This document shows, piece by piece, positions 3,412 through 26,202 of a stretch of DNA of 39,233 nucleotides (positions within the stretch are counted from its first letter, which is position 1; each line of letters opens with the position of its first letter). A program made the translations under genes and the position numbers. The stretch lies in contig CANHDN010000009.1 in assembly GCA_947459415.1 (NCBI GenBank), positions 1-39,233 on the forward strand. Reading direction: 5' to 3'. The notes under the pieces were generated by a model. The model ran no database searches, was not told where the DNA came from, and worked only from the letters and a program-made list of their open reading frames with translations. Source of the DNA: Bacteroidota bacterium (lineage in GTDB: Bacteria; Bacteroidota; Bacteroidia; UKL13-3).

Positions 3412-3413
3412 CC

Positions 3414-6400
3414 ATGCCTACCAACTATAAACCATCCATATCCTCGCTTATACCCTTTAGTGAGTTACCTCAAATACCCGGGTTAACGGGTAATTTGAGT
3501 ACTATATTTTCAAAACTATATTATGCTAACCTCAAGGTACACAAAAGTGCCAATGGTGACGCAGGTTACTACAGCATGAATTTGCAGTTGGACCAAAATG
3601 GTGAGTTTGGAATTCCATTTGGCGATTTTAATGTGGCCATAAATAAAAACTCAGGTGGGTTTGCTTTTACATTAGAGTACAAATGGATTATTTTAAAATA
3701 CCTAAGAGGCTTTAGTATTGATGATATCCCAACTGATGCAGCAGATTATGTAGACATTTTACTAAAAGTAACCGGTATTAACGATAAACAATTGTTGTAT
3801 GCCGCAATTGATGCGTTTTATTGGGATGCAGAAGACCCTTTAGCAGCTTTTTTGCAGGATGTTAAAGATAATTTTTCAGGTTATGGAAGTGTTACTTTAA
3901 CCGGTACAACCACCGAACAAATTATAGATAATTTAATAACGGATTTACAGGCTGCAAACACCAGCAATAGTATTCCGCTATTAATAACAACCACATGTGT
4001 TGTAGGTGTAGATTTCGATGAAATTTTCGAAAAGGTACAACTACTTTTTAGTGGAGTAATGGGTACTTTCTCGTTAGACAATCTACTCGAAATTTTAACA
4101 CCACAGTTTAAAGCCTCATTTGGTATAAATGAGTTGAGTTTAGAGTTCCCTAGGAGTATTTTAATACCTTACGATGAAGAAGATGAGAATGCAAAGTCAG
4201 CTCTAGTTGCTACCGGAGATATCAGCATGAGCTATGGAAACAAACAGGGTTTTGAGTTTGATTTTGAAGACAATGTAACGTTTGAATTTCCTAAATCATA
4301 CATTGGCAAAACGGGATTTACTGTTGAATTTTCAGGTGCTAAAGTTGATTTAAGTAAAACTAAAAATATTCCGGAGGCTGATGCTGATGGAAGAAGTGTT
4401 GAGTTTAATGGTGTTTTTGTTCAAGATGCTACTATTTATTTACCTGATGAGTGGACAAGAAGCGCATCATCAGAAGCAATTGAAATTAAAGGAACCGATT
4501 TATTAATTGGTACCGAGGGTGGTTTGTCGGGTATTATAGGTATACAAGGTAATGATGTATTAGAAATTGATTTGTTTGGGTTAACCATAACTTTCGATAC
4601 TTTTAGTGCAACGTTTTCTAAAAACAGTTTAGTTGATTCTGACATAACCGGCACCTTAGTAATAGCCGGATTAATTGATAAAAATACAGATGAAGATGCA
4701 GAGTTAAGCTTCAGCATGTCGTGGGATGGAGATGGATACGAAATCATCATTTCTTCTGAAGATGAAAATGGTATTTTACTCGGTGTGGGCTCACAAATGG
4801 ATATTACTTTAAAAGAACTTAAACTTGCGAAAAAAGATGGCAAGTGGGAGTTTGGCAGTAAAGGCAAAATTGAGCGCCTAAGCACATTAGGTAAATTGGA
4901 TGCTATAATACCGGAGACCATCAATATAGAAGAGTTTTTGTTGATGCAAGAAGGTGATAACAATTACGATATTACATTTACTTGGCCAAATGATGTTAAC
5001 GCAACGCTTACAGATGAAGAAGGATTTTTTGTAGAAATCCCGCTTGATAAAAAAATACTCGATGCGTTTACGCTACACTTATTAAAAGTAAAAATTAAAG
5101 AAGCTCAAGATAATGGCATAAGTATAACAACCACAGTTAATGCTTCGTTAGAACTTGGCCCTATAACCGGAAGTGTAACCGGTGCAGGGATAGAAACCAA
5201 TGTTTCTTTCCCCAATGGTGGTGGTAATTTAGGACCAATGCAGGTTGATCTTTCTTTTGTATCGCCTACCGGTGTTGGTATTGGCATTAAAAATGATTTT
5301 ATAAAAGGTGCAGGTTACTTCAGTTATGATAAAGAAAAGTCTACCTACTCAGGAGCATTAGAAGTAGAATTATTTGATTACAAGTTTAAAGCCATTGGTA
5401 TATTAAGTACCAAAATGCCGGATGGAAGTGATGGCTATTCTATATTAATAATACTTACAGGGGAGTTTAATCCACCATTTGAGTTAGGGTATGGCTTTAC
5501 CTTAAATGCCATTGGAGGTATGGTAGGTTTAAACCGTACAAGCAATGTTGATGTATTGCGCGCAGGAGTAATTGATAACTCGTTGGCCAATATTTTATTC
5601 CCAACAGACATAGCCAAAAATGGCGAAAAAATAATACAGGATATTAGTGCTGCTTTCCCAGTTAAAAAGGGTAGATTTTTAATTGGCCCTATGGCCAAAA
5701 TTGGTTGGGGTAAGCCCAATGTAATTGTGGGCGATGTAGCCTTGGTAGTAGAATTACCGGCTCCGGTATCATTACACTTACTAGGTGTTATTCGTGCTGT
5801 TTTACCGGATGGTGATGAACCAATGTTGAAATTGCAAGTAAACTTCTTAGGAACATTAGATCTTGGTAAAAAGCAATTATCGTTTGATGCATTTATATAT
5901 GAATCTTATTTCCTTGCTTTTGCAATAACCGGTAGTGTTGCACTTAGGTTGTATTGGGGCCAAAACGCTAACTTCTTATATTCTGTTGGTGGTTTCCATC
6001 CTGCATACACGCCACCACCAATGAATTTGTTACCAATGTCACGCATTGGTATGGGCTTCTCGTCATCTAACGCTTCTATGGCTTTGCAAAGTTATTTTGC
6101 AATAACTACCAATTCAGTTCAGTTTGGTTCTTCATTACAAGCCAAAGCACGCATATCAAAGTTTAGTGCCGAAGGAGGTGCTGGTTTTGATGCATTATTT
6201 ATGTTTGCACCATTTTCTTTTGTGGCAAATATTTGGGCTAATGTGTGTATTAAAGCTTGGGATACTACCTTATTTAACCTTGGCGCCAACATTACATTAA
6301 GTGGTCCAAACCCTTGGCAAGCGTATGGCTCTGTTAAGTTTGAAGTGTTGTGGATTGATTACGAAATTGATTTTGATATCACATTATCAAGCGGTGCAAA

Positions 6401-7190
6401 ACCTGAATTAAAATATTATGCTTTAAAGGAGTTGCTTGAAGGAGCATTAAAAGATAAAGCCAATTGGAGCGTAACGCCACCAAGTAAAAATTTAGCCCAG
6501 GTATCAGTGGTCGATAATAAAAACGATAGTTTTATTGTTCATCCATTTGGAAGCATCAGGTTTAGTCAAAAACTTATTCCATTAAATACCACGGTTCAAA
6601 AATATGGTAACGGTAAAGTTTGGAAAAATAACCCGGGCGATGAACATGTTCATGTTTCGTTTGGTAACATTACCGATGGAACAAATACCCTGAGTAAAAA
6701 AACGGCTACTGAATTATTTCCTCGTGGCGAATTTTTCTACTTAAACTCAAGCGATCGTTTATCCTCAAAAGGTGCCTACATAAATTTACCTTCTGGTGTT
6801 GAAATTAGTGGCGCATCTGATTTGGAGTTTTATTACGGTAACAGCAAACGCATTGTGTTTAATGAGCTAGCTTTTGATAGAGGAAAAAGGTCAGAAAATG
6901 GTGTGGTAGAAATATCACCTGATATTTTGGATAGACATAACATTGGTGCAACAGTAAGAAATATGTCTTTTTCAGCTCAAACCAACCAAAAACCTACACA
7001 CGGACCCGAGATAATTGAAGAGAAACCTCATGGATACGCAGTGTTAAGCAAAACTAATTTAACCAACATAAACGGTACTGTTGTATTCAACAATATTTGG
7101 GATGCAGAGCAATACCAAAAAGAATACTACCAAACCAACCCAATACAAAGAGATGCTACTTTAATACTTCACACGTCAGAAATAGAATAG
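3414..7190 (+). CDS. Giant DUF6603-like protein (1258 aa)
   Basis: The protein has no signal peptide. Its N-terminal 150 residues are mixed alpha/beta, then comes a very long beta-rich region of alternating short strands with many D/N/G turns. At about residues 690-990 there is a region I recognise as DUF6603-like: GYGFTLNAIGG, then a block ending near 860 with WGQNANFLYSVGGFHPAYTP, then FSAEGGAGFDALFMFAPF. DUF6603 is uncharacterised and occurs in bacteria and fungi, generally in very large proteins. The C-terminal 250 residues form a separate mixed domain. The gene starts 2 nt after the lipoprotein stop and ends 4 nt before the next gene. The architecture suggests a large beta-solenoid or barrel-like structural protein, but this is inference. 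Confidence 0.8.
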   Translation: MPTNYKPSISSLIPFSELPQIPGLTGNLSTIFSKLYYANLKVHKSANGDAGYYSMNLQLDQNGEFGIPFGDFNVAINKNSGGFAFTLEYKWIILKYLRGFSIDDIPTDAADYVDILLKVTGINDKQLLYAAIDAFYWDAEDPLAAFLQDVKDNFSGYGSVTLTGTTTEQIIDNLITDLQAANTSNSIPLLITTTCVVGVDFDEIFEKVQLLFSGVMGTFSLDNLLEILTPQFKASFGINELSLEFPRSILIPYDEEDENAKSALVATGDISMSYGNKQGFEFDFEDNVTFEFPKSYIGKTGFTVEFSGAKVDLSKTKNIPEADADGRSVEFNGVFVQDATIYLPDEWTRSASSEAIEIKGTDLLIGTEGGLSGIIGIQGNDVLEIDLFGLTITFDTFSATFSKNSLVDSDITGTLVIAGLIDKNTDEDAELSFSMSWDGDGYEIIISSEDENGILLGVGSQMDITLKELKLAKKDGKWEFGSKGKIERLSTLGKLDAIIPETINIEEFLLMQEGDNNYDITFTWPNDVNATLTDEEGFFVEIPLDKKILDAFTLHLLKVKIKEAQDNGISITTTVNASLELGPITGSVTGAGIETNVSFPNGGGNLGPMQVDLSFVSPTGVGIGIKNDFIKGAGYFSYDKEKSTYSGALEVELFDYKFKAIGILSTKMPDGSDGYSILIILTGEFNPPFELGYGFTLNAIGGMVGLNRTSNVDVLRAGVIDNSLANILFPTDIAKNGEKIIQDISAAFPVKKGRFLIGPMAKIGWGKPNVIVGDVALVVELPAPVSLHLLGVIRAVLPDGDEPMLKLQVNFLGTLDLGKKQLSFDAFIYESYFLAFAITGSVALRLYWGQNANFLYSVGGFHPAYTPPPMNLLPMSRIGMGFSSSNASMALQSYFAITTNSVQFGSSLQAKARISKFSAEGGAGFDALFMFAPFSFVANIWANVCIKAWDTTLFNLGANITLSGPNPWQAYGSVKFEVLWIDYEIDFDITLSSGAKPELKYYALKELLEGALKDKANWSVTPPSKNLAQVSVVDNKNDSFIVHPFGSIRFSQKLIPLNTTVQKYGNGKVWKNNPGDEHVHVSFGNITDGTNTLSKKTATELFPRGEFFYLNSSDRLSSKGAYINLPSGVEISGASDLEFYYGNSKRIVFNELAFDRGKRSENGVVEISPDILDRHNIGATVRNMSFSAQTNQKPTHGPEIIEEKPHGYAVLSKTNLTNINGTVVFNNIWDAEQYQKEYYQTNPIQRDATLILHTSEIE

Positions 7191-7194: not shown

Positions 7195-10100
7195 ATGTCA
7201 ACACCAACATATATAACCTATATACCGCATATCAGATATGGTATTGCAACCGGGATAACTACCGAAGATAATTTTGGAACAAACCCAACAGCAGGCGGCA
7301 ACCAAAGAAATGCTATTTCTTTAAATTTTCAGTTTGCAGGTAAAATGAAAGATTCAGATGGCTTAACACCATTTACTGTTCCTGATTTTGCTTCAAAAGA
7401 AATTGAATTGTATGGCCCTGGCGATATATTAGGTATCGACCCAGCTGCTGTTATTAGGACAAGTCCACCCGCAGGTGTAAATGTATTTGAACCTAATTAC
7501 CTGTCTTATGTAGAGTTTTATGAGGAAGACTTTCCTTGGCGCTACACACCTTTAAAAGCGGCCACAGATGGCGATCAAAAGAAGTTGCGTCCTTGGTTAA
7601 GTTTAGTGGTTTTAGATGATTCGGAATTTGAGCAAGTAGATTTGCCCAATGCCCCATTATCGGTTATTAAGTTAAAACAAAAACCTTCGCTGGTATTTCC
7701 TAACCCTCAGCAAATGTGGGCTTGGGCCCATGTGCAAGTAAATGGAAATTACGGAGCAGCTCCTACATTAGAAAGTTTAAAAGCAGCCGTTAAGGCTGAT
7801 AAGGCAGCCAATCCTGATATTGCTTTATCAAGGGTACTTTGCCCACGTAGGTTAAAACCCAACAAACAATACCATGCATTTTTAATACCTACTTTTGAGT
7901 TAGGTCGCAGAGCCGGGTTAGGTTTCGAAACTACTGACATCAGCATACAAAAATCGGCATGGGATTTAACCGATACTGATATGCAAGTATCAACCATTGA
8001 TAACCCAAGTATAAGAGGATACAACCAGTTTTATCCTGTTTATTACAAGTGGAGTTTTTCAACAGGTAACAATGATGATTTTGAATCGTTGGTTAATAAA
8101 ATTAAACCTAAATATTTAGGTCCCGAAACCGGGCACCGCCCTTTAGAGATTCAAGACCCCGGTCATCCGTCATTATACAATAATCTACCACCTACCATAA
8201 CAGATGGTACGCTAACATTAGAAGGCATATTAAAACCCATTATTAACGATAATGCTTTAGATTTCGATTCGCAATGGGAACTTAATGAAAGCAACGATTA
8301 TTTGGTGGCATTAAAGGATTACCTTAACCAACAAGAGTCTTATTTAACATCAAATCCTACTGATGACCCTGTGGTATCTGCACCTTTGTATGGAGCAAAA
8401 CATATACCTGCCACAACGGTAAATACCACTACTGTAAATTGGTTTACACGCATCAATCTCGACCCACGTTACAGGGCCATGGCCGGACTTGGTGCCGAGG
8501 TAGTAAGGCGCTACCAAGAAGATTATATGGCAAAAGCTTGGGACCAAGTAGGAGATGTGATAGAAAAAAACAAAACACTAAACACCTTGGCTTTGGCGCA
8601 ATTTGCCATGCGTGCCAATTACGAAAAAAATATTGCCTCTTTAACAGATGAAGAAGTGGTTAACCTGTCTTCTTCATTGTTAAGTAAAATGGTTTCTCCT
8701 GCTTTGGGCTCAGTAACTTACACGGCTGCCATGGCTCAAAGTAATTTACCCGCAAATGTAACCTCGGCTGCATTTAGGCGTTTAATAAGGCCGGGTAGTG
8801 TAACCGTAAAACAATTATTTGCCGGCACAAGTGGCCAATTTGCAGCTAATTTAATAGCACAAATTAACAGCGGCACAGTTCAGGTTTCGCCACCCATGCA
8901 TACCCCAACCGGGCATGCATCTATCACGGCTATTCCGCAAAGTCAATTTAGTGCAAGTTTTGTAAATAGTATTGCTTCGCACAATAAGTTTTCATTAAGC
9001 CAACCTGGTAGTTTTATAACGGCATCTACGGGTGGTGCCAATACTTCTGCCGCTAATAATTTTATAAGCATAGCTTCGGGGTTACACCAACATATTGGTA
9101 CGCTACCAACATTGCCTGCACCTGCACCTGCTTTTGACATTACTGTAGCTGCACAAGAAATTAAAGAAAAAATAAACCCTGCAGAAAGTGTAAAAGCCTA
9201 CACCAATAAATTATTTGTGCGCAACGGGGCCGATGGTACAACAGCTTCGTTTAACGATGTAAAGCCCGTAATGGCTGCACCTGCTATTGTAGCACCTATG
9301 TACAAACCATTGGCCGAAATTTCTACAGAGTACCTTATGCCCGGCTTAAAATACATTACCGATAATAGCGTTAGTTTATTATTGGCCAACCAAAAAATGA
9401 TGGAAGCATACATGCTTGGTGTAAATTGCGAAATTAACCGGGAGTTAACATGGCGTGGTTACCCTACCGACCAGCGCGGTACACCTTTCCGTCATTTCTG
9501 GGATTTTGCAAATGGCTTACAAGGTGGTAATTTTAAAGCTTTGGCTTCTAACCAAGGATTAATGGATATACATCCCGTGCATAAATGGCGAACCGGCCCA
9601 ACGCAAACAGGTGCATTAAGTGCGATAGGTGCCAATAGCAGCCGTACCACACCACCAAGTAACCAAATAGTATTAACCATGCGTGGCGAGTTATTGCGCA
9701 GGTACCCCAATACTGCAATTTATGCAGCAAAGGCTAAATGGCACCCTAATGGCCGTAACATAGTAAGACCATTACTAAGTACAGACATTTCTGCAGATAT
9801 GGAAGATACCAACAAAATACGCAAACCAATATTTACAGCACGTGTAGAACCCGATGTGTTTTTGGTAGGTTTTGATTTAACCTATACAGATGCCAAAGGC
9901 GATTCTGCTTTTGGCACTGGTACAAATGCTGGTTGGTATTTTGTAATGGAAGAACGACTAACCGAACCGCACTTTGGTGCTGATTTGACAACTGATCGCT
10001 CCAATCCCTTTAATACAACCATTGAGCAATGGAATCAGCTTTCATGGCCCCATATTGGAGTTGAAGAAGGAGGTCATATTCAATTTACGAGTTTAAACAA

Positions 10101-10269
10101 CCAGGGTGTAATAATAGCAAATACAGCAACTGGTGTAACTCCAATTAAAGTAGAGTTTGAGGATAAACAGATAAATTGGAAAAGGAACTCGGCCGATATG
10201 GCCTATGCAATGCATCGTGATGCAACAAGAGTAATGATTCATTCAGCAGATATGTTACCTAATTTATAG
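7195..10269 (+). CDS. Large uncharacterised conserved protein (1024 aa)
   Basis: I recognise the pattern but no name. Conserved blocks are LRPWLSLVVLDDSEF near residues 131-146, WAWAHVQVNG near 178, INLDPRYRAMAGLGAEVV near 418-437, and ELTWRGYPTDQRGTPFRHFWD near 749-769, with GWYFVMEERLTEPHFG near 910. From memory these blocks recur in giant hypothetical proteins of Actinobacteria, Cyanobacteria and others, next to homologues of the 1885-aa and 618-aa proteins encoded downstream here. There is no signal peptide, and a long A/S/T-rich central linker lies at about 500-680. The gene is 4 nt after the DUF6603-like gene. Function is unknown; the genetic linkage suggests a multi-subunit assembly. 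Confidence 0.8.
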   Translation: MSTPTYITYIPHIRYGIATGITTEDNFGTNPTAGGNQRNAISLNFQFAGKMKDSDGLTPFTVPDFASKEIELYGPGDILGIDPAAVIRTSPPAGVNVFEPNYLSYVEFYEEDFPWRYTPLKAATDGDQKKLRPWLSLVVLDDSEFEQVDLPNAPLSVIKLKQKPSLVFPNPQQMWAWAHVQVNGNYGAAPTLESLKAAVKADKAANPDIALSRVLCPRRLKPNKQYHAFLIPTFELGRRAGLGFETTDISIQKSAWDLTDTDMQVSTIDNPSIRGYNQFYPVYYKWSFSTGNNDDFESLVNKIKPKYLGPETGHRPLEIQDPGHPSLYNNLPPTITDGTLTLEGILKPIINDNALDFDSQWELNESNDYLVALKDYLNQQESYLTSNPTDDPVVSAPLYGAKHIPATTVNTTTVNWFTRINLDPRYRAMAGLGAEVVRRYQEDYMAKAWDQVGDVIEKNKTLNTLALAQFAMRANYEKNIASLTDEEVVNLSSSLLSKMVSPALGSVTYTAAMAQSNLPANVTSAAFRRLIRPGSVTVKQLFAGTSGQFAANLIAQINSGTVQVSPPMHTPTGHASITAIPQSQFSASFVNSIASHNKFSLSQPGSFITASTGGANTSAANNFISIASGLHQHIGTLPTLPAPAPAFDITVAAQEIKEKINPAESVKAYTNKLFVRNGADGTTASFNDVKPVMAAPAIVAPMYKPLAEISTEYLMPGLKYITDNSVSLLLANQKMMEAYMLGVNCEINRELTWRGYPTDQRGTPFRHFWDFANGLQGGNFKALASNQGLMDIHPVHKWRTGPTQTGALSAIGANSSRTTPPSNQIVLTMRGELLRRYPNTAIYAAKAKWHPNGRNIVRPLLSTDISADMEDTNKIRKPIFTARVEPDVFLVGFDLTYTDAKGDSAFGTGTNAGWYFVMEERLTEPHFGADLTTDRSNPFNTTIEQWNQLSWPHIGVEEGGHIQFTSLNNQGVIIANTATGVTPIKVEFEDKQINWKRNSADMAYAMHRDATRVMIHSADMLPNL

Positions 10270-10288
10270 TTTTTAATAAAATAAGATT

Positions 10289-11830
10289 ATGAAAAATCTA
10301 ATAGTTCTTTTTGTCTTTTTCCTCGCTACGCATCAGTTTATTCATGCTCAATTTGGCACTGTTAAGTCATTTTATAAAATCAGCGCTACAACAGGTGGTT
10401 TTACTGGTTTATCAGGGCAGAATATTGGCTTTGGTTCAGTATCAACCAATTTGGGTGATATTAATAAAGATGGTATAGATGATATTGCAACAAACATATG
10501 GGATCCAGTGAGTTTTAAACCCTTTTTGGCTGTTTTATTTATGAATTCCAATGGTACTGTTAAATCGCACAAATTGATAGGTGAGGAACAAGGGCTAAGT
10601 GGAATTTATTTCTCAACGGCATTCACATCATCAATTACCAACATGGGAGATTTAAATGGTGATGGTATAAATGATATTGCCGTAGGTGATACGGAGGCTG
10701 GTGGAAGTAACTCACGAACTGGGGTGGTAAATATTATTTATTTAAATACAGATGGTACAGTCAAGTCTTTTAAGCAAATTAGCCGTGATGTAATAGCTTC
10801 ACTGCCAAATAACGGTTCATTCGGAACAGGCCTCGCTAATATTGGCGACTTAAATAATGATGGCCATATTGACTTAGCAGTGGCATCAAACAGTGAGGTG
10901 TTGAATGGTGCAGTTGGGTGTATTTATATTTTATTTTTAGATAGTGTTCAGAATATAAAATCGTTTCGAAAAATTGGTGCTAATACCAGCGGTTTAAATG
11001 GAGACTTTTCAATGATTCTTAAAATTGCTGATGGTTTAGGCTCAATTGGTGATTTTAATAAAGATGGAGTAAATGATATCGCCTTTTATGCAAGATTCAA
11101 TAAAGACAGCGTTAGCTCACTAGGCGCACTAGGCGGATTGATTATTGCTTATTTAAACACTAATGGCACTGTAAAAAGTCATAGTCGAATTAATTACCAA
11201 AGCAATGGCTTACAGGATTTAATACCTAATGATGCATTTGGACAAAGTATAGTTAAACTAAATGATTTAGATGGTGATGGAGTGTATGAATTAGCAGTAG
11301 GCGCACCATTTGATACTACCTACAATGTAGGCCGTGGTGGCTCAGTGCGCATTTTGTTTATGAATGCTGATGGCACTGTAAAATCAGCACAAAAAATAGA
11401 CAACCTATCTGGTAATTTTAACCAACCCATTACTGATGCAGATTATTTCGGTACTATTGGACCATTAGGTGATTTTAACAACGATAGTATACCCGATTTA
11501 TTGGTAGGTTCCAGTGGTAAAGACGAAGGCGGAACCAACAAAGGAGCACTTTACTTATTGATGTTAAATGGGGTGCCTAGTGTAGGTTTAAATGATGTAC
11601 GTGCAAACCGCATACAAGTTAACCTTTACCCCAACCCGGCAAAATACCAAGTGCAAGTTAGTTGCCCATACCCTGTAACACAAATTACCATTACAGATGT
11701 AACCGGTAAAACAATACACCAACAAAAAAACAACGAGCCTATACAAGTACAAACTTGGCAAGCAGGCATGTATTACCTGCAAGTAAATACCACCCAAGGC
11801 ACAGCCACACAAAAAATTATTAAACAGTAA
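10289..11830 (+). CDS. FG-GAP repeat surface protein with T9SS sorting domain
   Basis: A signal peptide ends near residue 20 (HAQFG). Six integrin-alpha-type FG-GAP repeats follow. Each carries a Ca-binding loop of the form G-D-x-N-x-D-G-x-x-D-[IL]-A, and most blades also carry a GTVKS-like strand; the sixth loop has Ser for Gly (DFNNDSIPDL). The last 80 residues, starting near VNLYPNPAKYQVQV, form a type A T9SS C-terminal sorting domain ending in QKIIKQ. The protein is therefore expected on the cell surface or secreted through the type IX system, as a seven-bladed Ca-dependent propeller. It lies inside the run of non-exported giant proteins, 19 nt after one and 15 nt before the next, so it is probably co-transcribed with them. 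Confidence 0.88.
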   Translation: MKNLIVLFVFFLATHQFIHAQFGTVKSFYKISATTGGFTGLSGQNIGFGSVSTNLGDINKDGIDDIATNIWDPVSFKPFLAVLFMNSNGTVKSHKLIGEEQGLSGIYFSTAFTSSITNMGDLNGDGINDIAVGDTEAGGSNSRTGVVNIIYLNTDGTVKSFKQISRDVIASLPNNGSFGTGLANIGDLNNDGHIDLAVASNSEVLNGAVGCIYILFLDSVQNIKSFRKIGANTSGLNGDFSMILKIADGLGSIGDFNKDGVNDIAFYARFNKDSVSSLGALGGLIIAYLNTNGTVKSHSRINYQSNGLQDLIPNDAFGQSIVKLNDLDGDGVYELAVGAPFDTTYNVGRGGSVRILFMNADGTVKSAQKIDNLSGNFNQPITDADYFGTIGPLGDFNNDSIPDLLVGSSGKDEGGTNKGALYLLMLNGVPSVGLNDVRANRIQVNLYPNPAKYQVQVSCPYPVTQITITDVTGKTIHQQKNNEPIQVQTWQAGMYYLQVNTTQGTATQKIIKQ

Positions 11831-11845
11831 AACAACCCACAACTT

Positions 11846-14800
11846 ATGAGCTATACCGACCTACGCGATGACTTAAATGGCATACGCAATGATAGAGATG
11901 CATTACAATTACAACTAACTATACAAAACGAAAGACTAAAAGCTGTTGAACGCGAAATTAACAACGCAATAGCCAGAGGCGAAACTCCATCCACTAACCT
12001 CGTTAACGAAAAAAACGATTTAATGTACACCTTAATACCAAGTACATTAACAGCACTGAATAGTAAGGAGGGCGATGTTACAGCATTTGATGGTACTAAT
12101 CCCGGATTGTTTGATGAGTTGGCACCATTGCTTGATACTACTTACCCAATATTGTTGTTTCCGGTACGCATGGAAGTTAGGTTTACTTCAGCCTTGCCGG
12201 CAAATCCTTCGCTGCATACATCAGAGGGTCCGGGTGGCGAGGGTTATCCAATTATGCCAAAGCGTTTGCGTGTTAGGTTGTACCCCGATGCTATTGCCAT
12301 ACATGATCATGAACAACTATTAACGGAAGATGAAGAAACGGCCGGACATAAATTTTGGTACCAATACCTCAAACGAGATCAAGCATCAGATCCATTAATT
12401 GAAGGCAACAAAATTAAGGCTTGGGAAGACTTATGCATAGCAGCAAAAAAATCGCAACGTGCTGCATGGGTTGCATTACAAACCAAACCTATTGGGTTTA
12501 ACATGGATGATATGAGTGGAACTATTCCATTAATTCCTGATAATTATGATTCCCTAGATCCTTTAAATCCTACTTTTCCATTTCCGGTAATAACAAGTTA
12601 CAGAACAGACTCGGGCACAACGCAAGCATATACCAGAGTAATGCCGGATAGGTTTAAGTTGTATGGGTATGACGAGAACGATACATTAATACTAACCGAA
12701 ACCGGACAAAAAATACCCGATACACTAAGAGTAGGATTCGACTTTAATGCCCAAGATAATGCAAAGTCAATATCAGTTGATGGTAACAACAACTTAGTGT
12801 TTGAACAACGGATAAAATGGATGTATGATTTTGCAGAAGCCGAGCGCATGGGTATGGCTTTTGATATTGACATAACGGTAGATTACAACGATCCGGATTC
12901 TATTTGGAACAAGGGTATAAAAAAACTTTTTGCAGTAGGTGTTCGTCCAAGCTTTGATCAAAACCTAGGTTCAAATCTTGTGTCCGATTTATTTAACGAC
13001 CACCATTATACAGCTGGAATAAGTTTACTAAAACAGGGCACAGCAACCAATAACACCGACAGCAAGTATGCTGGCTATACACATGTTGATTTAGATAGAG
13101 AGTTAACCCAAAAAATTGAGGTTGATGAGAAATTGTTTGATGTTGTAGTGGATAAAAAAGAGCGCACTGATGGTCAGATTTTAGCTGAAGCAATTGGTTT
13201 AGAGTATAGTGATTTGTACCATGTGTTTAATGCCAATGGCAAAGACATAACCAATGCCATGCGTATGAATAATATTATGTGGGAAGCAACCGGTGGTTAT
13301 TACCTGCGCAATATGGTTTATACAAACTATATGGATATGGAGATTGAACAAACCAAAGACTTTTTTACAGATTATGTGCGTGCTAGAGGAGCTTTACCAA
13401 GTATACGGGTAGGTAAGCAACCTTATGGTGTATTGCCGGCTACAAAATTTAAAACCATTAATTGGCCGGTAGGTTACAACAATAAAAACATACTAGATAA
13501 TATTCATAACATAACCGGAAAGTTTGATGATATTCAATTAGCAACTGCACGTTTGGCAAAAACAGTTGGTAATACCGATAATCCGGAACAAACCTTTGCT
13601 GATATACTAGGTAAACATGCTGTTTCGCAAGATTACTTTATTAGAAAAGGCTTGGGCCCGGGCTACATGTGGAATTATTTAATGCTTATTGGTGATAACA
13701 ATAATGCACAAATATGGCTTGATGAACAGCAGTTATCAGGTAACGATTTCTTTTCAGATTTAAACCTAGCCCAATCAAACGGTATCCCCGATTTTTTACA
13801 ATACAGCTTTCATTCAACCACAAGCAAGCTAGGTATTCCTTTGGTTGATGATTATCCTGAATCAGATACAGAACCACTGAGGGTTATTCCAAATACATCA
13901 AAAAACTACATAGGCTGGTTGGCCCAAGCAAACCTTACACAACTTCGTGATTTAGATTTTACCGAAATTGGTGGAGGTATTGAAGAAGATGTGCCCAATA
14001 CCTTTTTATTTAAAATGTGCCGACAATCTTTGTTGCTTGGTTATTATAACTTGGCTTGCGATTTATTAAATGTGCCAAGTGATGATAGAAAAGAAAAAGA
14101 GTTCGTAAATTTTGAAAATGAAGTTTACGAGGCAGGTGGAGATGAAAATCCTTATCCAGATTTTAGAACCCGCGTGGGCAATAGCCGATGGGCAATATTT
14201 GATACATATTACGAGGCTGGCGGAATGCCAATAGGCGACTACATTGATTCGAATTTTGAATCTATAACAGATGATTTACCATCATATAAATACATTGTTG
14301 ATGTAAAGATCGATTTATTAGCAATAGAATTTTTACCAACCTTCGATTTAGGTTTATTGTTTAGAGAATCGCTAGATTTATTTATTTTCAGATTTGACTC
14401 ATGGCGACTTTCATTAGTTAACGAGCGCATTAATTACATGCGAGGTACGCTAGGCGACCCAAGCAATAGAAATAAAGGTTTGTATGTTGGAGCCTATGGT
14501 TGGCTAAAAAATGTTAAGAGAAAAGATATTGGGCTGACTCTTGCTCATTACGATTCACTGACTGGAAATCCTGTATACACAAGAAGTGATAATAATGGAT
14601 TTGTTTTAGCACCATCAATCACACATGCGGCGGCCGCAGCCTTTTTAAAGAGTGTTTACGTAACTAAAGCAAATAATGCTAAACCTGATTTTTTATCAGT
14701 AAACATTTCTTCAGAACGTATGCAAAAAGCCCTTGAGGTGCTTGATGCAGTGAGAAATGGTCAGCGCATTGATCTTGTATTGGGTTATTATTTCGAGAAA

Positions 14801-17503
14801 AAATTATATGATTTGAATATAGCTGACCACACATATTATTTTAGAGATGCGTTTAAAACGGATTCCTTGGTTGGTTCAACCAATACAAATAGTGTAGGAA
14901 TAGTTGTAGATGGATTAAAATTAATTGCAGCATACAAACAACATACAACAAATATTTTTACAGCCATCCCGGCTTTATCAAGTATTCCAAATCTAAATAC
15001 AACAGAAGCATACAATGCAATAAGTTATGTAGCTAATATTTTAGATGCTATTGCCGATTTAGCAACTGCCGAAGGTGCCTATCAAATAATGTTAGGCAAT
15101 TCAGAAAAAGCAGGTAAATTATCTGATGCTTTAACAGCAGGAACTTATCCTCCGGAACCTGATATTTTAAAAACCCCTAAAAATGGAATTTTATTAACCA
15201 ATAGTGTAATGCATACATTTACTCCATTTGTAACATCCAATAATGGTGAGAATTTGTATACTACAACTTGGGGAGGTATTGAACCAACCTGGAGAGCCAA
15301 AACAGAACCTACCATCAACAATTGGCTGATTTCTATACTGCCAAATGCTGGTGATGTATCACTTAAAATAGCCTATGTTATAAATAATCAACCCCAAGAG
15401 GCTCATGTTTTTCTGAATAACCTGCAGTTACATCCAATTGACTTGGTTTTGGATGTAGACGGTATGTTTAATCCCGAATCTTTTGTAAGTAAGATGATTC
15501 GTAAATATGTTCAAGAAAACTTCACTTTAAATCCGGATATAAATGTTGAAATACACTTTGATTTAAAAAATTCTTCAAGTTCATTTTCAGTTAATGATTT
15601 AGTGCCGCTACTCAAACAGCTAAAGGTGTTTTATTTAAATTCCACTCCAACTAAAACAAGTGATTTTTGGACCGGTGTTTCAAATGTAGAAAATGTCGAA
15701 GATAGGTATGACCTAGATGATATATACAATAGAGTTAGTGCATTAGTTGAAACTTTGAATAAACAATTGACGGAATTAACCTCTTGGATAGAATTAAAAA
15801 ATACCGCATTAAACCTAGAAATGCAAAACTATGCAGGTGGTACTAACATGGTGTACAATTCAGCTGATTCTAGTATCTCAACATGGAGTGTATTAAGCCC
15901 TGATTCCAATTATACAACTGGAAGATTTGTACGGAACTATGGTAGCGGAATAGGTTATGGTATTGCTGATGGGCAACAATTGGATTTTATTTTTCAAGTA
16001 CCATGTACAATAGAAGTTATGTTTAAATGCGAACAAGTATCAGATGATTATCAAACCATACTAAGTTCTGCTTTTAATTATAACGATCCAAGTTCAAATT
16101 TTAAATTATGCCTTACTCAAGATGGGCGAATTGCTTTTGTATATGGAAACACAACTTACTTTGATGATATTGATGTTGATTTAATAGATGGTAATTATCA
16201 TGATTTAGCCATTGTGATAGACCAAAATAACATAAAAGCCGTAATAGATGGGATAGAAAATGATAGAACGTTTTTTCAATTGCCTAGTTATACTGGTCAA
16301 TCTGGTGATATGTTAGTTATTGGTGCTAATCCAGAAACTGGATATGGTAATAACTTTAATGGTTCAATTTGGGGAATTAGATTCTGGAACATACCTAGAA
16401 GTTTGGGTGAAATAGATAGTGACAAGTTTCAAGATTTAGGCTCAGCCCCTAATTTAATTGCAAGCTGGCATTGTAACGAAGCAAAAGATTTTTGGCAATA
16501 TTTATTTAATAAGTCTGTTAATGAAGCAAACGAAACTGATTTATTAAATTACTCAGTATTTATAAAAGCATTAGATAACGAAGCGAATTCTTATCTTAAT
16601 CTGAGAGAAATTGCAATAGCCAAGAAATTATCACATGAGGCAAGAATAATCGCATTAGAAGACTTTGACTATAGTTTACCAAGTCCTAGTGCTAGCAAGA
16701 AAGAAGTGAATAAATTCATAAAAGTAGCTAGTCAATTAGCCGAATATATATTAGGTGGAGGGTATAAAATGATACCGCACTTTAAGTTGGATCAAGATAT
16801 ACATGTCTCACTAAACAGATGTTTGAATAATGTAGAATCTTATGAACGAAACTTGTTATTAGACCATATACCATCAACAGATACAACTGATGTTTTTTTA
16901 AAGAAAAGATCGTTAATTATGGATAAATGGTTTTATGGTGTATCAATGGTTAGGAAAAACATATTGAGTTATAGTTTACTTCAAGATGTTTCAGCACTTT
17001 ATAGCACTGATTTTGGATTTGATAATTGGAGCTTAACACCTGTTCAACACCCTGCTGTATCAACAAGTGATGACAGGTGGTTGGGCATTAGTGTAAACAC
17101 TACAAATGAGAATTTAAATAATAGATTGTCCATTGTTATAAATGCGAATGATTATTTTAAAAATAATTTAAATGCTACAAGTAACCATGTTGCATTAACT
17201 ATTGATAGTTGGACTGAAACTATACCACTTGAAAATACAACGGCAGGTTTGGCATTTCACTACGATCAACCACAAAGTAAAGCACCACAATGTTTACTAT
17301 TGGCAATGCATCCTGTAATTGGCAGTGAATGGGCTATCGAAACTTTACGTGATATTGTAGTAGAAACATACAATTTAGCAGAAAAACGTGGAGAGGATTA
17401 TTCATCATTAAGTGCAACGGTATTGGCAAAAACAATGGGTCCATTTTTACCGGCAACAGAAAATAACACAACCATTGGCTTTTTTAATTCAGAACTTTTT
17501 TAA
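11846..17503 (+). CDS. Giant uncharacterised protein with LamG-like domain (1885 aa)
   Basis: Residues 1-60 are coiled-coil-like. Family landmarks follow: FPVRMEVRF near 104, VRLYPDAIAIHDHEQLLTED near 142-161, VGKQPYGVLP near 521, and RMQKALEVLDAVRNGQRIDL near 958 followed by VLGYYFEKKL. I recall the same blocks in giant hypothetical proteins of other phyla, paired with the families encoded on either side. A concanavalin-like LamG (Laminin_G_3-type) domain sits at about 1333-1548, ending GIRFWNIPRSLGEI and IASWHCNEAKD; this fold usually binds sugars or proteins. No signal peptide is seen. Function is unknown. The next gene follows after 9 nt. Confidence 0.82.
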   Translation: MSYTDLRDDLNGIRNDRDALQLQLTIQNERLKAVEREINNAIARGETPSTNLVNEKNDLMYTLIPSTLTALNSKEGDVTAFDGTNPGLFDELAPLLDTTYPILLFPVRMEVRFTSALPANPSLHTSEGPGGEGYPIMPKRLRVRLYPDAIAIHDHEQLLTEDEETAGHKFWYQYLKRDQASDPLIEGNKIKAWEDLCIAAKKSQRAAWVALQTKPIGFNMDDMSGTIPLIPDNYDSLDPLNPTFPFPVITSYRTDSGTTQAYTRVMPDRFKLYGYDENDTLILTETGQKIPDTLRVGFDFNAQDNAKSISVDGNNNLVFEQRIKWMYDFAEAERMGMAFDIDITVDYNDPDSIWNKGIKKLFAVGVRPSFDQNLGSNLVSDLFNDHHYTAGISLLKQGTATNNTDSKYAGYTHVDLDRELTQKIEVDEKLFDVVVDKKERTDGQILAEAIGLEYSDLYHVFNANGKDITNAMRMNNIMWEATGGYYLRNMVYTNYMDMEIEQTKDFFTDYVRARGALPSIRVGKQPYGVLPATKFKTINWPVGYNNKNILDNIHNITGKFDDIQLATARLAKTVGNTDNPEQTFADILGKHAVSQDYFIRKGLGPGYMWNYLMLIGDNNNAQIWLDEQQLSGNDFFSDLNLAQSNGIPDFLQYSFHSTTSKLGIPLVDDYPESDTEPLRVIPNTSKNYIGWLAQANLTQLRDLDFTEIGGGIEEDVPNTFLFKMCRQSLLLGYYNLACDLLNVPSDDRKEKEFVNFENEVYEAGGDENPYPDFRTRVGNSRWAIFDTYYEAGGMPIGDYIDSNFESITDDLPSYKYIVDVKIDLLAIEFLPTFDLGLLFRESLDLFIFRFDSWRLSLVNERINYMRGTLGDPSNRNKGLYVGAYGWLKNVKRKDIGLTLAHYDSLTGNPVYTRSDNNGFVLAPSITHAAAAAFLKSVYVTKANNAKPDFLSVNISSERMQKALEVLDAVRNGQRIDLVLGYYFEKKLYDLNIADHTYYFRDAFKTDSLVGSTNTNSVGIVVDGLKLIAAYKQHTTNIFTAIPALSSIPNLNTTEAYNAISYVANILDAIADLATAEGAYQIMLGNSEKAGKLSDALTAGTYPPEPDILKTPKNGILLTNSVMHTFTPFVTSNNGENLYTTTWGGIEPTWRAKTEPTINNWLISILPNAGDVSLKIAYVINNQPQEAHVFLNNLQLHPIDLVLDVDGMFNPESFVSKMIRKYVQENFTLNPDINVEIHFDLKNSSSSFSVNDLVPLLKQLKVFYLNSTPTKTSDFWTGVSNVENVEDRYDLDDIYNRVSALVETLNKQLTELTSWIELKNTALNLEMQNYAGGTNMVYNSADSSISTWSVLSPDSNYTTGRFVRNYGSGIGYGIADGQQLDFIFQVPCTIEVMFKCEQVSDDYQTILSSAFNYNDPSSNFKLCLTQDGRIAFVYGNTTYFDDIDVDLIDGNYHDLAIVIDQNNIKAVIDGIENDRTFFQLPSYTGQSGDMLVIGANPETGYGNNFNGSIWGIRFWNIPRSLGEIDSDKFQDLGSAPNLIASWHCNEAKDFWQYLFNKSVNEANETDLLNYSVFIKALDNEANSYLNLREIAIAKKLSHEARIIALEDFDYSLPSPSASKKEVNKFIKVASQLAEYILGGGYKMIPHFKLDQDIHVSLNRCLNNVESYERNLLLDHIPSTDTTDVFLKKRSLIMDKWFYGVSMVRKNILSYSLLQDVSALYSTDFGFDNWSLTPVQHPAVSTSDDRWLGISVNTTNENLNNRLSIVINANDYFKNNLNATSNHVALTIDSWTETIPLENTTAGLAFHYDQPQSKAPQCLLLAMHPVIGSEWAIETLRDIVVETYNLAEKRGEDYSSLSATVLAKTMGPFLPATENNTTIGFFNSELF

Positions 17504-17512
17504 GTATTAAAG

Positions 17513-19369
17513 ATGAGCACGTATAGTACAACTAGTATAGACTTAGTAAGTCAAACACGTTTGGAAAGCAGTATAACTGCACCAAGCATGACAGAAACAA
17601 TTAAAGCTCAGGTTCACGATGCTTTGTGGATGCTTACACAACAAAATAGAGTTGGTGAGTATAATGCAGAAGATGCCGGAACACCAATAAGTGTTAAAGT
17701 GGCTTTAAATAAAACCAAACTTAATCGTCTTCAGGCAACTGTAAATTCTTCTGTTGAGTATAACAGTAATGTGCCATTGGAAGCGAGAGTAGAGCGGATG
17801 CCATTAGTTGTTGATTTTAGAACTCGACTTACATTAGGTAACTATTGGATTAAGCTAATGAGGAGAAGTTTTGCTTCAAATCTTACCCAATTTACTGCTT
17901 ACTTAAATGTATTTAAAGCAGCGTATTCAATTTCGCTACCTCCAAGTTCAGCATCTTTAACTACTGATGACTTGAGCTATAATAGTGACAAAGTTTTGGT
18001 TACATTAAATACCCTAAGCGCAAACAACACTTTTGACGGATATAAGCTTTACTTGGATTTAACAGGAGCATCCGCAATTCACGCTAAAGATATTCAAGGA
18101 ATTAGTTCGACACATGCAAGTGTATTTGACGAAATAGAGACAAATTTTTTAGAATGGGTTAACACCATTTATTTTAAAGGTGATAATGAACCAACTTATT
18201 GGAGTAATGGTTCTTTAGACTATTCATTTAATGTATCTGCCCCTTTAAATTCTGATGGATCCGAGCAGGTTGTTTTGCAGGTAAAAGAGTTATCAAGTGG
18301 CAATTTGGATTGGTATAATTTTAACATATTAGAGGCACCAAGTACACTGCCTGATTCCAATATTTCAGATGCGAACATATTTGAATCTGAGACAAAAACA
18401 TTACTTCCTACTAAACTAGTTTTTAAAGGAATGACTAATGAGCGCTGGTGGCAATTTGAAGACAGGGATATAGATTTAAAGTATTTAGAAACCAATCTTA
18501 GAAACTCAAGTAAACTCTCTTTACAAGAGTTTGCCTTAAGCCATGGAAATGATTGGTTTGTAATTCCAATTGACACTTTGGTTGGAAGTATTTTAGAGGC
18601 TGAAAATCTTCAGGTACAAGATGTTTTTGGTGAATTAACGCATATAGAACGAGCTGGTGAAGGTCCTTCCTCTTCATGGTGGAAGTGGAGCATGTTTAAC
18701 ATGGATTCTGTAGTTGATTTAGATAGTAAACTAAACACAGATGGGAAGTTATTTATAGCCCCTTCTTTGCATTCAAGTTTAGAAAGTGAACCTTTTGAAA
18801 AAGTAAGTTTTATGGCTGATGAACTTGCAAATATTGTATGGGGTATTGAGGAAATAGTGCCCAATCAACTGCACACCGGAAAAAGCATTATAGATGCGGA
18901 GAATGCTTTTTTGAGACAATTTGATATAGTTAAACAGGCACTAAGTCCAATGTCACCTAATACCCTATTAGCTAATAGCAGCGTTATATCATATAAAATT
19001 GGTAACAACGTACCAGGCAATTGGATTCCTTTTGTAAACGTAAATTCAATAGCAATAAATGGGAGAACATACTCACTAATGCGTGGGCGTATTGAACAAA
19101 TTATTGATGGATATGATACTGAGGAATACACAACCCCAAGAACAATGATTTTACGAAATACTTCGAGTGTTGCTGGTGCTTTGAATTCATTATACATTAA
19201 CAACGAAGAAATGGCTTTAAAATCTGTTCAAGTTACCGGCTCATATCAACGAGCTAGGTGGTTTAATGGAAGAACATATACTTGGTATGCAAGAAAAAGA
19301 CAAGTTGGAAAAGGCCCTGTTACCAGTGGCGTTAAATTTGATGAAATTGAGCCACGTGTTACAAATTAA
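17513..19369 (+). CDS. Uncharacterised conserved protein (618 aa), EDAG family
   Basis: The N-terminal block VHDALWMLTQQNRVGEYNAE followed by DAGTPISV (residues about 32-60), then PLEARVERMPLVVDFRTR, matches from memory a widespread hypothetical family whose signature reads roughly DPLWLLxRQWQxGEFxGEDAGSP. It co-occurs with the two giant families encoded upstream. The C-terminal motif WFNGRTYTWYARKRQVGKGP is basic and aromatic. There is no signal peptide and no catalytic motif I can recognise. This is the last gene of the run; a strong palindromic terminator begins 32 nt past its stop. Confidence 0.8.
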   Translation: MSTYSTTSIDLVSQTRLESSITAPSMTETIKAQVHDALWMLTQQNRVGEYNAEDAGTPISVKVALNKTKLNRLQATVNSSVEYNSNVPLEARVERMPLVVDFRTRLTLGNYWIKLMRRSFASNLTQFTAYLNVFKAAYSISLPPSSASLTTDDLSYNSDKVLVTLNTLSANNTFDGYKLYLDLTGASAIHAKDIQGISSTHASVFDEIETNFLEWVNTIYFKGDNEPTYWSNGSLDYSFNVSAPLNSDGSEQVVLQVKELSSGNLDWYNFNILEAPSTLPDSNISDANIFESETKTLLPTKLVFKGMTNERWWQFEDRDIDLKYLETNLRNSSKLSLQEFALSHGNDWFVIPIDTLVGSILEAENLQVQDVFGELTHIERAGEGPSSSWWKWSMFNMDSVVDLDSKLNTDGKLFIAPSLHSSLESEPFEKVSFMADELANIVWGIEEIVPNQLHTGKSIIDAENAFLRQFDIVKQALSPMSPNTLLANSSVISYKIGNNVPGNWIPFVNVNSIAINGRTYSLMRGRIEQIIDGYDTEEYTTPRTMILRNTSSVAGALNSLYINNEEMALKSVQVTGSYQRARWFNGRTYTWYARKRQVGKGPVTSGVKFDEIEPRVTN

Positions 19370-19747: not shown

Positions 19748-20386
19748 TCAGAATAAACTTAATTGATTATTTCTTTCCCAATTCAAAGGATCACCATGAA
19801 TTCCTGTATTGAATTTGACAGTTACCCAATTAATAAAATCGTCTGCAAGTTGAATATTCTCAAATTTCTTTTCACCGATGCCTTCCTTGCAAATCTCAAG
19901 AAACTCTTTCGGAATAGTTGGTGCATTGGTGCCGAAATAATAAAAATGTTCGGATATAAGAACATTCTGCCCACTAGTGTCCTTTTTCAAATGACCTTGG
20001 TGGCAAGTTCCATCTTGCATGCTATGTGCTGAATCCTCTTGTATCCAATTGCCATTTTCGTCCTTATGATAAAAATTGTCGCCAAACATTGCAACACGAC
20101 TACCGTTCATTTTTGGTTTTTTATATTGAAATCTCGGGGCGGACCAATATTCATCAAATGTTATTCTTTCTGTTACTTGCATTGCATAAATCAATTTACT
20201 CAGTAGCCCTTTTTTACCAGTTGATATTTCAAGTGCTTTTGATCCTGTTCCCAAAACCCAATCTCCTATTTTTAACTTACTACTCTTCCTTATTTTCGGT
20301 TTGCATACTGCTAATGTGCAATATTGTCCGAATGGATTTGGAGCTAAACCAAAATCGTGTTCTATAACATAAGAGTATACTACCAT
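19748..20386 (-). CDS. Nmad2-type nucleotide-modification-associated protein
   Basis: The 212-aa protein opens with YSYVIEHDFGLAPNPFGQYC and TLAVCKPKIRKS, then GDWVLGTGSKAL, YAMQVTERITFDEYWSAPRF, a central GDNFYH, and VLISEHFYYFGTNAP near residues 142-156. This matches my memory of nucleotide modification associated domain 2 (Nmad2), a small alpha/beta family predicted from gene neighbourhoods of DNA-base modification and conflict systems. Its biochemistry is unknown. It is the last gene of the eight-gene minus-strand operon, 3 nt after the ThsB-like TIR gene, and is followed at once by a bulged hairpin. It could read or act on modified nucleotides or bases as the sensor or effector arm; that is inference. 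Confidence 0.75.
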   Translation of the reverse strand: MVVYSYVIEHDFGLAPNPFGQYCTLAVCKPKIRKSSKLKIGDWVLGTGSKALEISTGKKGLLSKLIYAMQVTERITFDEYWSAPRFQYKKPKMNGSRVAMFGDNFYHKDENGNWIQEDSAHSMQDGTCHQGHLKKDTSGQNVLISEHFYYFGTNAPTIPKEFLEICKEGIGEKKFENIQLADDFINWVTVKFNTGIHGDPLNWERNNQLSLF

Positions 20387-20389
20387 CGA

Positions 20390-20872
20390 TTAACATTTTA
20401 TATTTGGACGAACGAACAAGGGAGTTGCAGTAGTTCCATCGGGATTTTCAAAAGGAATATTTTCACCGGTAATAATATCTCCAAGTTTTTCAATGGAATT
20501 CCACCCAATAATGTCAGAAGCATATTCTTTTAGGTTTTCGGGAAGTTCAGCAGTTCCTGAATAACCGTGAGCATAAACACCTACTATTTTTTTACCTTGC
20601 TCATGAGCCCATTTAATTTCGTCATTGACCCATTCTCTAGTGTGTGTTTTAGGGCCAATTAAGCATATGAATGTACTAGACCAACTAATTCGCATTCTCA
20701 ATAAACGTTCAACAACAGCATCGGAAGGTATTCTACCATCTTTATGATTAGTGCTGTCAACTGAAAAATTTCTAACGTTAAAGCCTTTGTCTTTAAGCCT
20801 TGACTTTAATGATTGTAAATGTTCGTCATCTTTACCATAATGACTAATAAAAATATTGTGTTGATCTGCCAT
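20390..20872 (-). CDS. ThsB-like TIR domain protein (160 aa)
   Basis: This is a single-domain TIR-like protein of the DUF1863/MTH538 or Thoeris ThsB type. Strand A carries FISHYGKDD (residues 8-16), followed by a D/H/K-rich loop, then FICLIGPKTHTREWVNDEIK, where Glu85 in the WVNDE motif is the probable NAD-processing residue. GKKIVGVYAHGY follows. Thoeris ThsB proteins make cyclic ADP-ribose-type signals from NAD on phage infection. The length fits a bare TIR with no receptor or membrane part, so sensing must come from another component. It lies 10 nt after the HhH gene and 3 nt before Nmad2. Confidence 0.85.
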   Translation of the reverse strand: MADQHNIFISHYGKDDEHLQSLKSRLKDKGFNVRNFSVDSTNHKDGRIPSDAVVERLLRMRISWSSTFICLIGPKTHTREWVNDEIKWAHEQGKKIVGVYAHGYSGTAELPENLKEYASDIIGWNSIEKLGDIITGENIPFENPDGTTATPLFVRPNIKC

Positions 20873-20882
20873 ATTGTTGTTT

Positions 20883-21890
20883 TTAAATGTTTATACCCCA
20901 TTTTGGAGGAAAAAAATACTCGATAGATTCATTTTGTTGAATTTTGTACTTCTGCTTTATTCTTATACGGTTTGACGCACCTTCAATTTCAGGATGAGCA
21001 ACTCTTGAATATTTGTCTACTTCACAAAAAATGTTTTGGCAGTCAATCAACTGCAACTTTCTTCCCCATAAATTTTTAAAATCCAAATTTAACCTTTCAA
21101 ATTCCTGCTCTTGATTTTCTACCATGAGGTGAATAATATCTTCAAATGAATATCCGCCAAAGTCTTTAAAGCATTTTACAATTCCATCCTTTGCTCCTGG
21201 ACCCGCTTTCACAAATTCCATTTCTGTAAAGTTTGTGAGTGTGCTGTAATTGATGTCGGTTACATATTGATAGGCTAAAAAATCTCCAATGGTTGGATAA
21301 GAATGTAAAAGGTTGTATGCCTCACTCATGCTTTTACAATGTTGAAGTTTGTAGGGCACTTTTTCTTTTATCATCTTCTCTATTAACCGCAAATGATTTT
21401 GATGTTTCCTTTCGTAACCAAAAGTTGAGCTGCCCGATGACATGATGTAAGCAGCAGAATAAATAGGGATTCTATTCTGCATCATTTCCGAAAGTACCTT
21501 GTCATATCGTTTGAAAGAATAATCTTTGAAACTGATTTTGCCCAACTCGAATTCTAAAACTTCCCAAGTTGAAATGCGATTGAAAATTTTAAAAAGTATT
21601 AGTCTAAAAAAAACTTCTTCGGGTTTTTGACTGCCTTTATAAATCACATTCTTAATTAAGTATTGACTTACTCTATCGGTTACTCTGTACACATTTGTGA
21701 ACTTGTATTCATTAAGTATCTTGTCTTTCGTCCAAGGAGAACTTTCGCCATTAAACCTTTTGAAAAATACATTCTGTCTCTCTGCTGCAAATTTCCAATA
21801 AGTATTGTAAGCGATACTAGGCTTTGTTTTTTTCGTAAGTATCAAAACCGATTTGTTTTTGCTATTTGTTTTTAATAACTCACTTGTCAT
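20883..21890 (-). CDS. HhH protein of hypermodified-thymine enzyme class
   Basis: The 335-aa protein is largely helical. A helix-hairpin-helix-like element GPGAKDGIVKCF lies at about 230-241, preceded by YPTIGDFLAYQYVTDINYS. A conserved C-terminal block runs LWGRKLQLIDCQNIFCEVDK (274-293), then YSRVAHP and FFPPKWG at the end. I recognise this as the DNA-glycosylase-like helical family named either alpha-glutamyl/putrescinyl-thymine pyrophosphorylase (aGPT-PPlase) or the 5-hydroxymethyl-dU DNA kinase helical domain; I cannot separate the two names from sequence alone. Phage relatives take part in making hypermodified thymines. No kinase P-loop is visible. The start overlaps the SLOG stop by 4 nt (ATGA). 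It may recognise or act on modified phage DNA, as inference. Confidence 0.72.
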   Translation of the reverse strand: MTSELLKTNSKNKSVLILTKKTKPSIAYNTYWKFAAERQNVFFKRFNGESSPWTKDKILNEYKFTNVYRVTDRVSQYLIKNVIYKGSQKPEEVFFRLILFKIFNRISTWEVLEFELGKISFKDYSFKRYDKVLSEMMQNRIPIYSAAYIMSSGSSTFGYERKHQNHLRLIEKMIKEKVPYKLQHCKSMSEAYNLLHSYPTIGDFLAYQYVTDINYSTLTNFTEMEFVKAGPGAKDGIVKCFKDFGGYSFEDIIHLMVENQEQEFERLNLDFKNLWGRKLQLIDCQNIFCEVDKYSRVAHPEIEGASNRIRIKQKYKIQQNESIEYFFPPKWGINI

Positions 21891-22858: not shown

Positions 22859-22860
22859 TT

Positions 22861-24635: not shown

Positions 24636-24638
24636 AAT

Positions 24639-25523: not shown

Positions 25524-25535
25524 GATGTGCTTTAT

Positions 25536-26084: not shown

Positions 26085-26124
26085 CTTGCATTAATAATTA
26101 AATTTTGTGCGAAAAATTAAAATG

Positions 26125-26151
26125 GCCAGATTTGCAGTTGGTTTTTCTGGC
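26125..26151 (-). other. Small hairpin in the leader of the TIR operon
   Basis: GCCAGA at 26125-26130 pairs with TCTGGC at 26146-26151 across a 15-nt loop. If transcription starts just after the box at 26195-26202, this stem lies about 40 nt 5' of the first TIR start codon. It has no U-tract next to it in the operon direction, so it is not an obvious terminator. Confidence 0.3.
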
Positions 26152-26194
26152 TCATATAATTTTCTATTAACTTATTCTGACTGTTTGATTATTG

Positions 26195-26202
26195 CAAAGT
26201 AA
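26195..26202 (-). promoter_or_regulatory. Bacteroidota-like -7 box for the TIR operon
   Basis: CAAAGTAA on the + strand reads TTACTTTG on the coding strand, close to the Bacteroidota -7 element TAnnTTTG. The same octamer stands before the TonB receptor gene and before the sigma factor gene in this window. I see no good -33 TTTG at the matching distance here. Confidence 0.4.

Follow-up and report, generated by a model that had tools for sequence, protein, structure and literature searches.

Tc (ABC) toxin complexes consist of a few giant proteins, contain no ATPase, possess propeller-type repeats and carry a variable cargo, and variable effectors, such as trypsin-like proteases, subtilases and phospholipases D (PLDs), are typical of abortive-infection-type systems. 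A published account (PMC11297309) describes extracellular contractile injection systems (CISs) as multi-gene systems with a variable toxin cargo, occurring sporadically across bacteria and archaea. The present work concerns contig CANHDN010000009.1 (39,233 nucleotides) of a Bacteroidota bacterium (assembly GCA_947459415.1), analysed as a whole and called the window below, and a conserved operon of ~14 kb represented in it. The operon has four core genes, all located on the forward strand of the window, which encode a DUF6603 protein (D, 1258 amino acids (aa), 3414–7190) and three proteins of unnamed families, namely A (1024 aa, 7195–10269), B (1885 aa, 11846–17503, with a laminin-G-like insert) and C (618 aa, 17513–19369). 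An earlier reading of the sequence, the first-pass annotation, singled out the three latter proteins as a linked set, and the open reading frames are situated exactly where it placed them and contain the motifs that it quoted (ELTWRGYPTDQRGTPFRHFWD in A, VRLYPDAIAIHDHE and VGKQPYGVLP in B, QVHDALWMLTQQN and EDAG in C); the linkage of A, B and C stands, but a fourth core gene directly upstream, encoding DUF6603, and an exchangeable enzyme gene had been missed. Tentatively, we regard D-A-B-C as a chassis carrying one exchangeable enzyme, probably for inter-organism conflict.

Conservation and distribution of the operon

When 84,980 species genomes were scanned with a profile, at least 478 relatives of A emerged, a lower bound since the scan used one peptide pattern; the loci analysed below are the best 80 of these. 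They cover Bacteroidota, Cyanobacteriota, Actinomycetota, Chloroflexota, Nitrospirota, Bacillota, Pseudomonadota, Acidobacteriota and Ignavibacteriota; overall, the operon, which has so far had neither a name nor a function, is found in hundreds of species, which represent at least ten bacterial phyla as well as haloarchaea. The order and strand D-A-B-C are kept across 79 loci from the scan: with profiles built from the first loci, and counting as testable the loci whose sequence extends far enough past A on the side concerned, D precedes A in 64 of 66 loci, B follows A in 76 of 76 and C has its place in 70 of 70. The median gaps, in the order of the genes, are 20, 6 and 37 bp, and the gap between D and A in the window is 4 bp. 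The linkage across phyla supposed in the first-pass annotation is thus practically certain, as is the gene order. The co-occurrence that it named for Actinobacteria and Cyanobacteria is real and wider, and extends to plasmids, where a tblastn search detected A in 13 records, all but one of which (12) also gave a hit for B. The plasmid carriers are Streptomyces, haloarchaea, Rhizobium, Paraburkholderia, Gemmatirosa and Nocardia; in the Nocardia plasmid, tblastn detected A alone, and the profiles then found B and C.

Within the class to which the window belongs, six of 149 genomes contain A, and the same six contain C and full-length B, so no independent distribution of the three families was found there; six further hits of B, considered as independent occurrences, corresponded to laminin-G only. 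The flanks beyond the operon contain ordinary genes, with no recurrent family besides the enzyme gene described below. A search of viral contigs found none. Record MT835531.1 (L149), a faecal, unverified and unannotated sequence filed as "Bacteriophage sp.", contains the end of a DUF6603 gene followed by A-B-C and is, therefore, probably a bacterial contig.

Variants of the gene arrangement were observed as well. Two Nitrospira loci (L098, 550–9980, and L111, 774–9818) have two DUF6603 genes flanking the enzyme gene, in the order D-cargo-D-A-B-C, and a rearranged distant relative of the operon is present in L113/L114 (genome G114) and L115 (genome G111, second D). The rearranged operon encodes D' (up to 3223 aa) and proteins of ~500, 300, 1200–1400 and 610–690 aa, and its last gene contains FISUMP or Kelch domains. 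In an hhalign comparison, the ~500-aa protein aligns with the N-terminal 300 residues of A (probability 71%, E 3.6e-5), and the 300-aa protein may, given a weak match, correspond to the end of A; A apparently is split here into parts of ~500 and 300 aa.

Exchange of the upstream enzyme gene

The gene located directly before D is co-directional with it in 57 of 74 loci, compared to 30 of 76 for the gene after C (Fisher p 3e-6), which indicates that the operon usually starts with the upstream gene and ends with C. The 60 upstream proteins, hereinafter called cargos, include PhoD-like phosphatases (13), IgA peptidases M64 (nine), subtilases (six), PLDs (three), DUF2515 proteins (two), a tyrosinase and a galactose oxidase; trypsin-like peptidases make up another group. 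Five cargo families compared by hhalign were mutually non-homologous, and the supposition that all cargos belong to one family was ruled out by this comparison. Judging by the sequences, the catalytic motifs are mostly intact: HExxH is kept in 17/17 M64-type cargos, GDQIY and DDHE in 13/14 and 12/14 members of the PhoD family, respectively, while the PLD cargos have the HxKxxxxD motif and most trypsin cargos have GDSG.

In the FastTree phylogeny of A, the 44 labelled loci require 19 changes among ten cargo states. Sister loci with different cargos include L063 (trypsin) and L067 (PLD), L079 (trypsin) and L082 (subtilase), and L077 (trypsin) and L100 (subtilase); the branches of all three pairs have 100% local support. 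We hold with high confidence that enzymes are exchanged upstream of the chassis. No signal peptide was recognised by eye in the N-termini of the cargos. Small genes adjacent to the cargo were considered as a conserved fifth core gene and rejected, since these genes differ.

C-terminal domain of the protease cargos

The subtilase and trypsin cargos, which have unrelated folds, share a C-terminal domain of ~130 residues with the consensus EVxxLxNxxRRVxVAWHRxxGPA; it is also encoded free-standing, as genes of 138–140 aa beside a protease, in L040, L052 and L060. In 20 whole genomes (4–11 Mb), the domain gave 21 matches in 14 genomes, all inside the coordinates of the operon locus, and six of the 20 genomes, where the operon has another cargo, gave no match genome-wide. 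We are, accordingly, fairly sure that the domain is restricted to the operon in these 20 genomes; the simplest reading is that it would be a docking or loading domain for the chassis.

Close to the C-terminus, a CxxC motif, frequently of the form FCxVC, is conserved in the majority of M64-type cargos, e.g., in L034 (3737–6538) and L046 (4021–6549). It is possible that this motif represents a second docking signal.

Database searches and structure predictions

Protein D clearly belongs to DUF6603 (Pfam PF20248, E 2.5e-113, 379.8 bits against a gathering cut-off of 27). Searches of Pfam, NCBIfam, PHROGs and PADLOC revealed no describing model for A, C and B outside the laminin-G domain (1387–1523, Pfam); a Tup_N match on A was at the chance level. 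PDB sequence and profile searches, with profiles of 43–66 sequences, found no match for A, B and C, and the designed coiled coils and prefoldin that appeared there were chance-level hits. The three families therefore match neither a known enzyme nor a PDB chain, in agreement with the first-pass annotation, which regarded them as families of unknown function. The profile search with DUF6603 found no solved structure, and the literature searches found no description of the operon and, in the paper library searched, no mention of DUF6603. Within the model libraries consulted, three of the four core families are thus not represented.

Structure modelling covered A and D. The AlphaFold2 model of A is confident (pLDDT 85.1, pTM 0.73), and a Foldseek search with it against 350,542 PDB chains and the viral library gave no match at E ≤ 0.001, the antibody-type hits being due to chance. 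The model of D consists of a helical N-terminal part and an amphipathic all-β DUF6603 part, a long meander with strands of ~13 residues, where the pLDDT is mostly 80–95. The faces of the strands alternate in hydrophobicity; the strand amphipathicity is 2.93 versus 1.35 ± 0.21 for shuffled sequences (0/2000 shuffles). Of the 64 A proteins that were aligned, 5 have a two-helix hydrophobic hairpin inserted midway along the chain, which is absent from A of the window; its presence in a minority of A proteins points to a membrane. Hairpin-bearing A proteins are those of L059, L077, L081 (one helix recognised), L099 and L100, and also L021, L024, L026 and L028.

Accessory modules and cell compartment

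Between A and B, the window contains a forward-strand gene (10289–11830) of a secreted FG-GAP β-propeller of 513 aa with a signal peptide and a sorting tail of the type IX secretion system (T9SS). The Pfam matches are FG-GAP (1.6e-26) and Por_Secre_tail (1.3e-11), and the protein passes as a T9SS substrate by its C-terminal sorting domain TIGR04183 (E 7.3e-13, 48.3 bits against a cut-off of 23); the gene is a lineage-specific insertion, not a core gene. FG-GAP, DUF5122 and lamin-tail domain (LTD) proteins with T9SS tails are found within Bacteroidota operons, Kelch genes are located between D and A in Actinomycetota, and in haloarchaea PQQ propeller and lamin-tail proteins are encoded beside or inside the operon. 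Propeller and binding modules in the operon fit a role in surface recognition.

The T9SS-tailed proteins and laminin-G in B, together with the hairpin of A, are also consistent with the display of enzymes on the cell surface, or their secretion, in a nutritional or envelope role, where the chassis would anchor the enzymes via lectin-like and propeller modules; phosphatases of the PhoD type would suit phosphate scavenging. However, the core proteins have no export signal in the lineages read, with no obvious Sec signals, and unrelated activities exchange at the same locus, unlike in a dedicated nutrient pathway. We consider display unlikely.

The absence of Sec signals from the chassis and most cargos would agree with intracellular defence of the abortive-infection type, in which the four proteins, on sensing infection, would set free a variable effector enzyme harmful to the host cell. 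The variety of the effectors, including trypsin-like, subtilase and PLD ones, fits such a role, as does the sporadic distribution, often on plasmids. On the other hand, neither the four core proteins nor two upstream proteins matched a PADLOC model, and in the Pfam and NCBIfam searches the operon showed no NTPase and no domain for nucleotide binding or sensing. The 93 flanking proteins are mostly products of ordinary genes; ten PADLOC models were hit among them, each by a single protein, a count that has no control set. The tyrosinase, galactose oxidase and PhoD cargos, as well as the laminin-G, LTD and propeller modules, fit defence poorly, so that this role is less likely and is given a low probability here.

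Cargo region of the window and contig C140

The left end of the window truncates the gene at the cargo position, the 3' part of which (2–1219, forward strand) forms a reading frame open leftward at the contig end. The closest long relative of this reading frame (family f9) is a 2706-aa subtilase of locus L047/L142, with the tail region of which it is homologous; the L142 protein contains Peptidase_S8 (E 2.2e-20) and the f9 tail. The variable region between the cargo gene and D comprises two further forward-strand genes. The first (1206–2237) encodes a protein of 343 aa that matched no family and had no relative among the other loci of the first set; the second (2185–3411, exact start uncertain) encodes a predicted lipoprotein of 408 aa with the lipobox-like sequence MLIVLMILGC, the signal being judged by eye, and a weak similarity to PQQ propellers (Pfam PQQ_2, E 0.018, below the cut-off). 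C is the last gene of the operon, and the next downstream gene is on the opposite strand, where a run of minus-strand genes occupies 19748–29419.

Another contig of the same genome, C140 (G000:C140:1-5801, L143), opens with a stretch 98% identical to positions 1–346 of the window (forward strand), past which the similarity drops abruptly. Beyond the shared start, C140 contains a divergent C-terminus, other signal-peptide genes, a degraded duplicate gene and a broken 92-bp copy (C140:4689–4780, 91%) of the start of the DUF6603 gene (3405–3496 of the window, forward strand). By its contents, C140 resembles a displaced cassette, as in toxin loci; it is possible, too, that it is a product of strain mixture in the assembly.

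Such a cassette would suit a polymorphic toxin locus, and so would the small signal-peptide genes that separate D from the cargo gene in L043, L047 and the window, with the upstream gene as the toxin, the small genes as immunity genes and D-A-B-C as the dedicated carrier. Yet the divergent C-terminus in C140 still looks homologous, not unrelated, C140 could stem from a co-assembled strain, and immunity genes are not evident at most other loci; a polymorphic toxin locus of this kind seems quite improbable.

Relation to contractile injection systems

The first-pass annotation saw no contractile-injection genes in the window, and none are there; the genome to which the window belongs gave no phage sheath hit at all. 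The operon might nevertheless be an accessory or cargo module of a CIS encoded elsewhere in the genome, since a sheath hit was obtained in 34 of 50 operon genomes (26 over the cut-off), a proportion that has no baseline from comparable operon-free genomes. The remaining 16 of the 50, including that of the window, have no sheath hit, which makes a dependence on CISs unlikely. No CIS component was recognised in the operon or its flanks: there are no sheath, tube or baseplate genes among the annotated neighbours of the plasmid loci, and no phage or CIS families among the listed Pfam matches (first 25 families) of the 93 flanking proteins. The nearest sheath checked, in the genome of L060, is ~108 kb away. 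We consider a CIS module highly improbable.

Proposed function

The arrangement described above suggests that D-A-B-C is probably a dedicated enzyme carrier. The set may form a physical multi-protein machine, as the first-pass annotation supposed for A, B and C. D, A, B and C would assemble into one large complex, where the amphipathic β-sheet of DUF6603 might touch lipid, or make a barrel or a groove, and where the laminin-G, lamin-tail, Kelch, FG-GAP and other propeller modules would supply binding specificity. The enzyme would dock on the complex, in the protease branch via the operon-exclusive C-terminal domain. Following lysis or non-classical export, the complex may then deliver or display hydrolytic or oxidative enzymes directed at other organisms; delivery to other organisms is a possibility that we favour with reserve. 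The operon gave no match to an NTPase family, and in the flanks nothing but the cargo gene recurs, so that the complex would have to be self-assembling or rely on general export or lysis. In its full form, the proposal is of a self-contained ATPase-free machine of bacteria and archaea, with A of a novel fold and a lipid-contacting DUF6603 protein, into which an enzyme is loaded and then delivered to other cells; we put this forward still more cautiously.

Several observations weigh against this proposal. The C-terminal domain is limited to the subtilase and trypsin cargos, and PhoD, M64 and PLD cargos lack it; in 17 of 74 loci, there is no co-directional gene directly upstream. Within the window's class, DUF6603 occurs in the same six genomes as A, B and C and in one more (G114) without them, although within the related rearranged operon. 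The propeller and LTD proteins inserted in Bacteroidota operons have T9SS tails, in contrast to the core proteins, which have no signal. The best Foldseek neighbours of D, outer-membrane barrels and ApoB, have TM-scores that are too low to define its fold and were not regarded as homologues. Finally, while linkage, gene order, enzyme exchange, the intact motifs and the operon-restricted domain are shown, the assembly, docking, membrane contact, export, target and putative killing are inferred.

The combination of a fixed chassis, a swappable enzyme and an operon-restricted domain makes the function readily testable. If it is true that the enzymes reach other cells, the operon would represent a new delivery principle.

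Comparison with known systems

Of the core proteins, D is a member of PF20248, a family without an assigned function, whose fixed partners A, B and C have no models. Like extracellular CISs, the D-A-B-C loci are multi-gene, sporadic and equipped with a variable cargo; unlike them, the operon contains no AAA ATPase or recognised CIS component, and the fold of A matched none of the phage proteins. The likeness to Tc toxin complexes consists in a few giant proteins without an ATPase, propellers and a variable cargo, but the cargo of D-A-B-C is encoded by a separate upstream gene. Neither the Pfam and NCBIfam nor the PDB sequence searches matched A, B, C or D to Tc components (TcA/TcB/TcC, RHS), and no fold match to them was found for A. 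In comparison with polymorphic and contact-dependent toxins, whole cargo genes are exchanged here, the carrier consists of four unnamed proteins and the immunity genes are putative; what the operon has in common with these toxins is exchangeable enzymes on a constant carrier and, in the genome of the window, a displaced-looking cassette.

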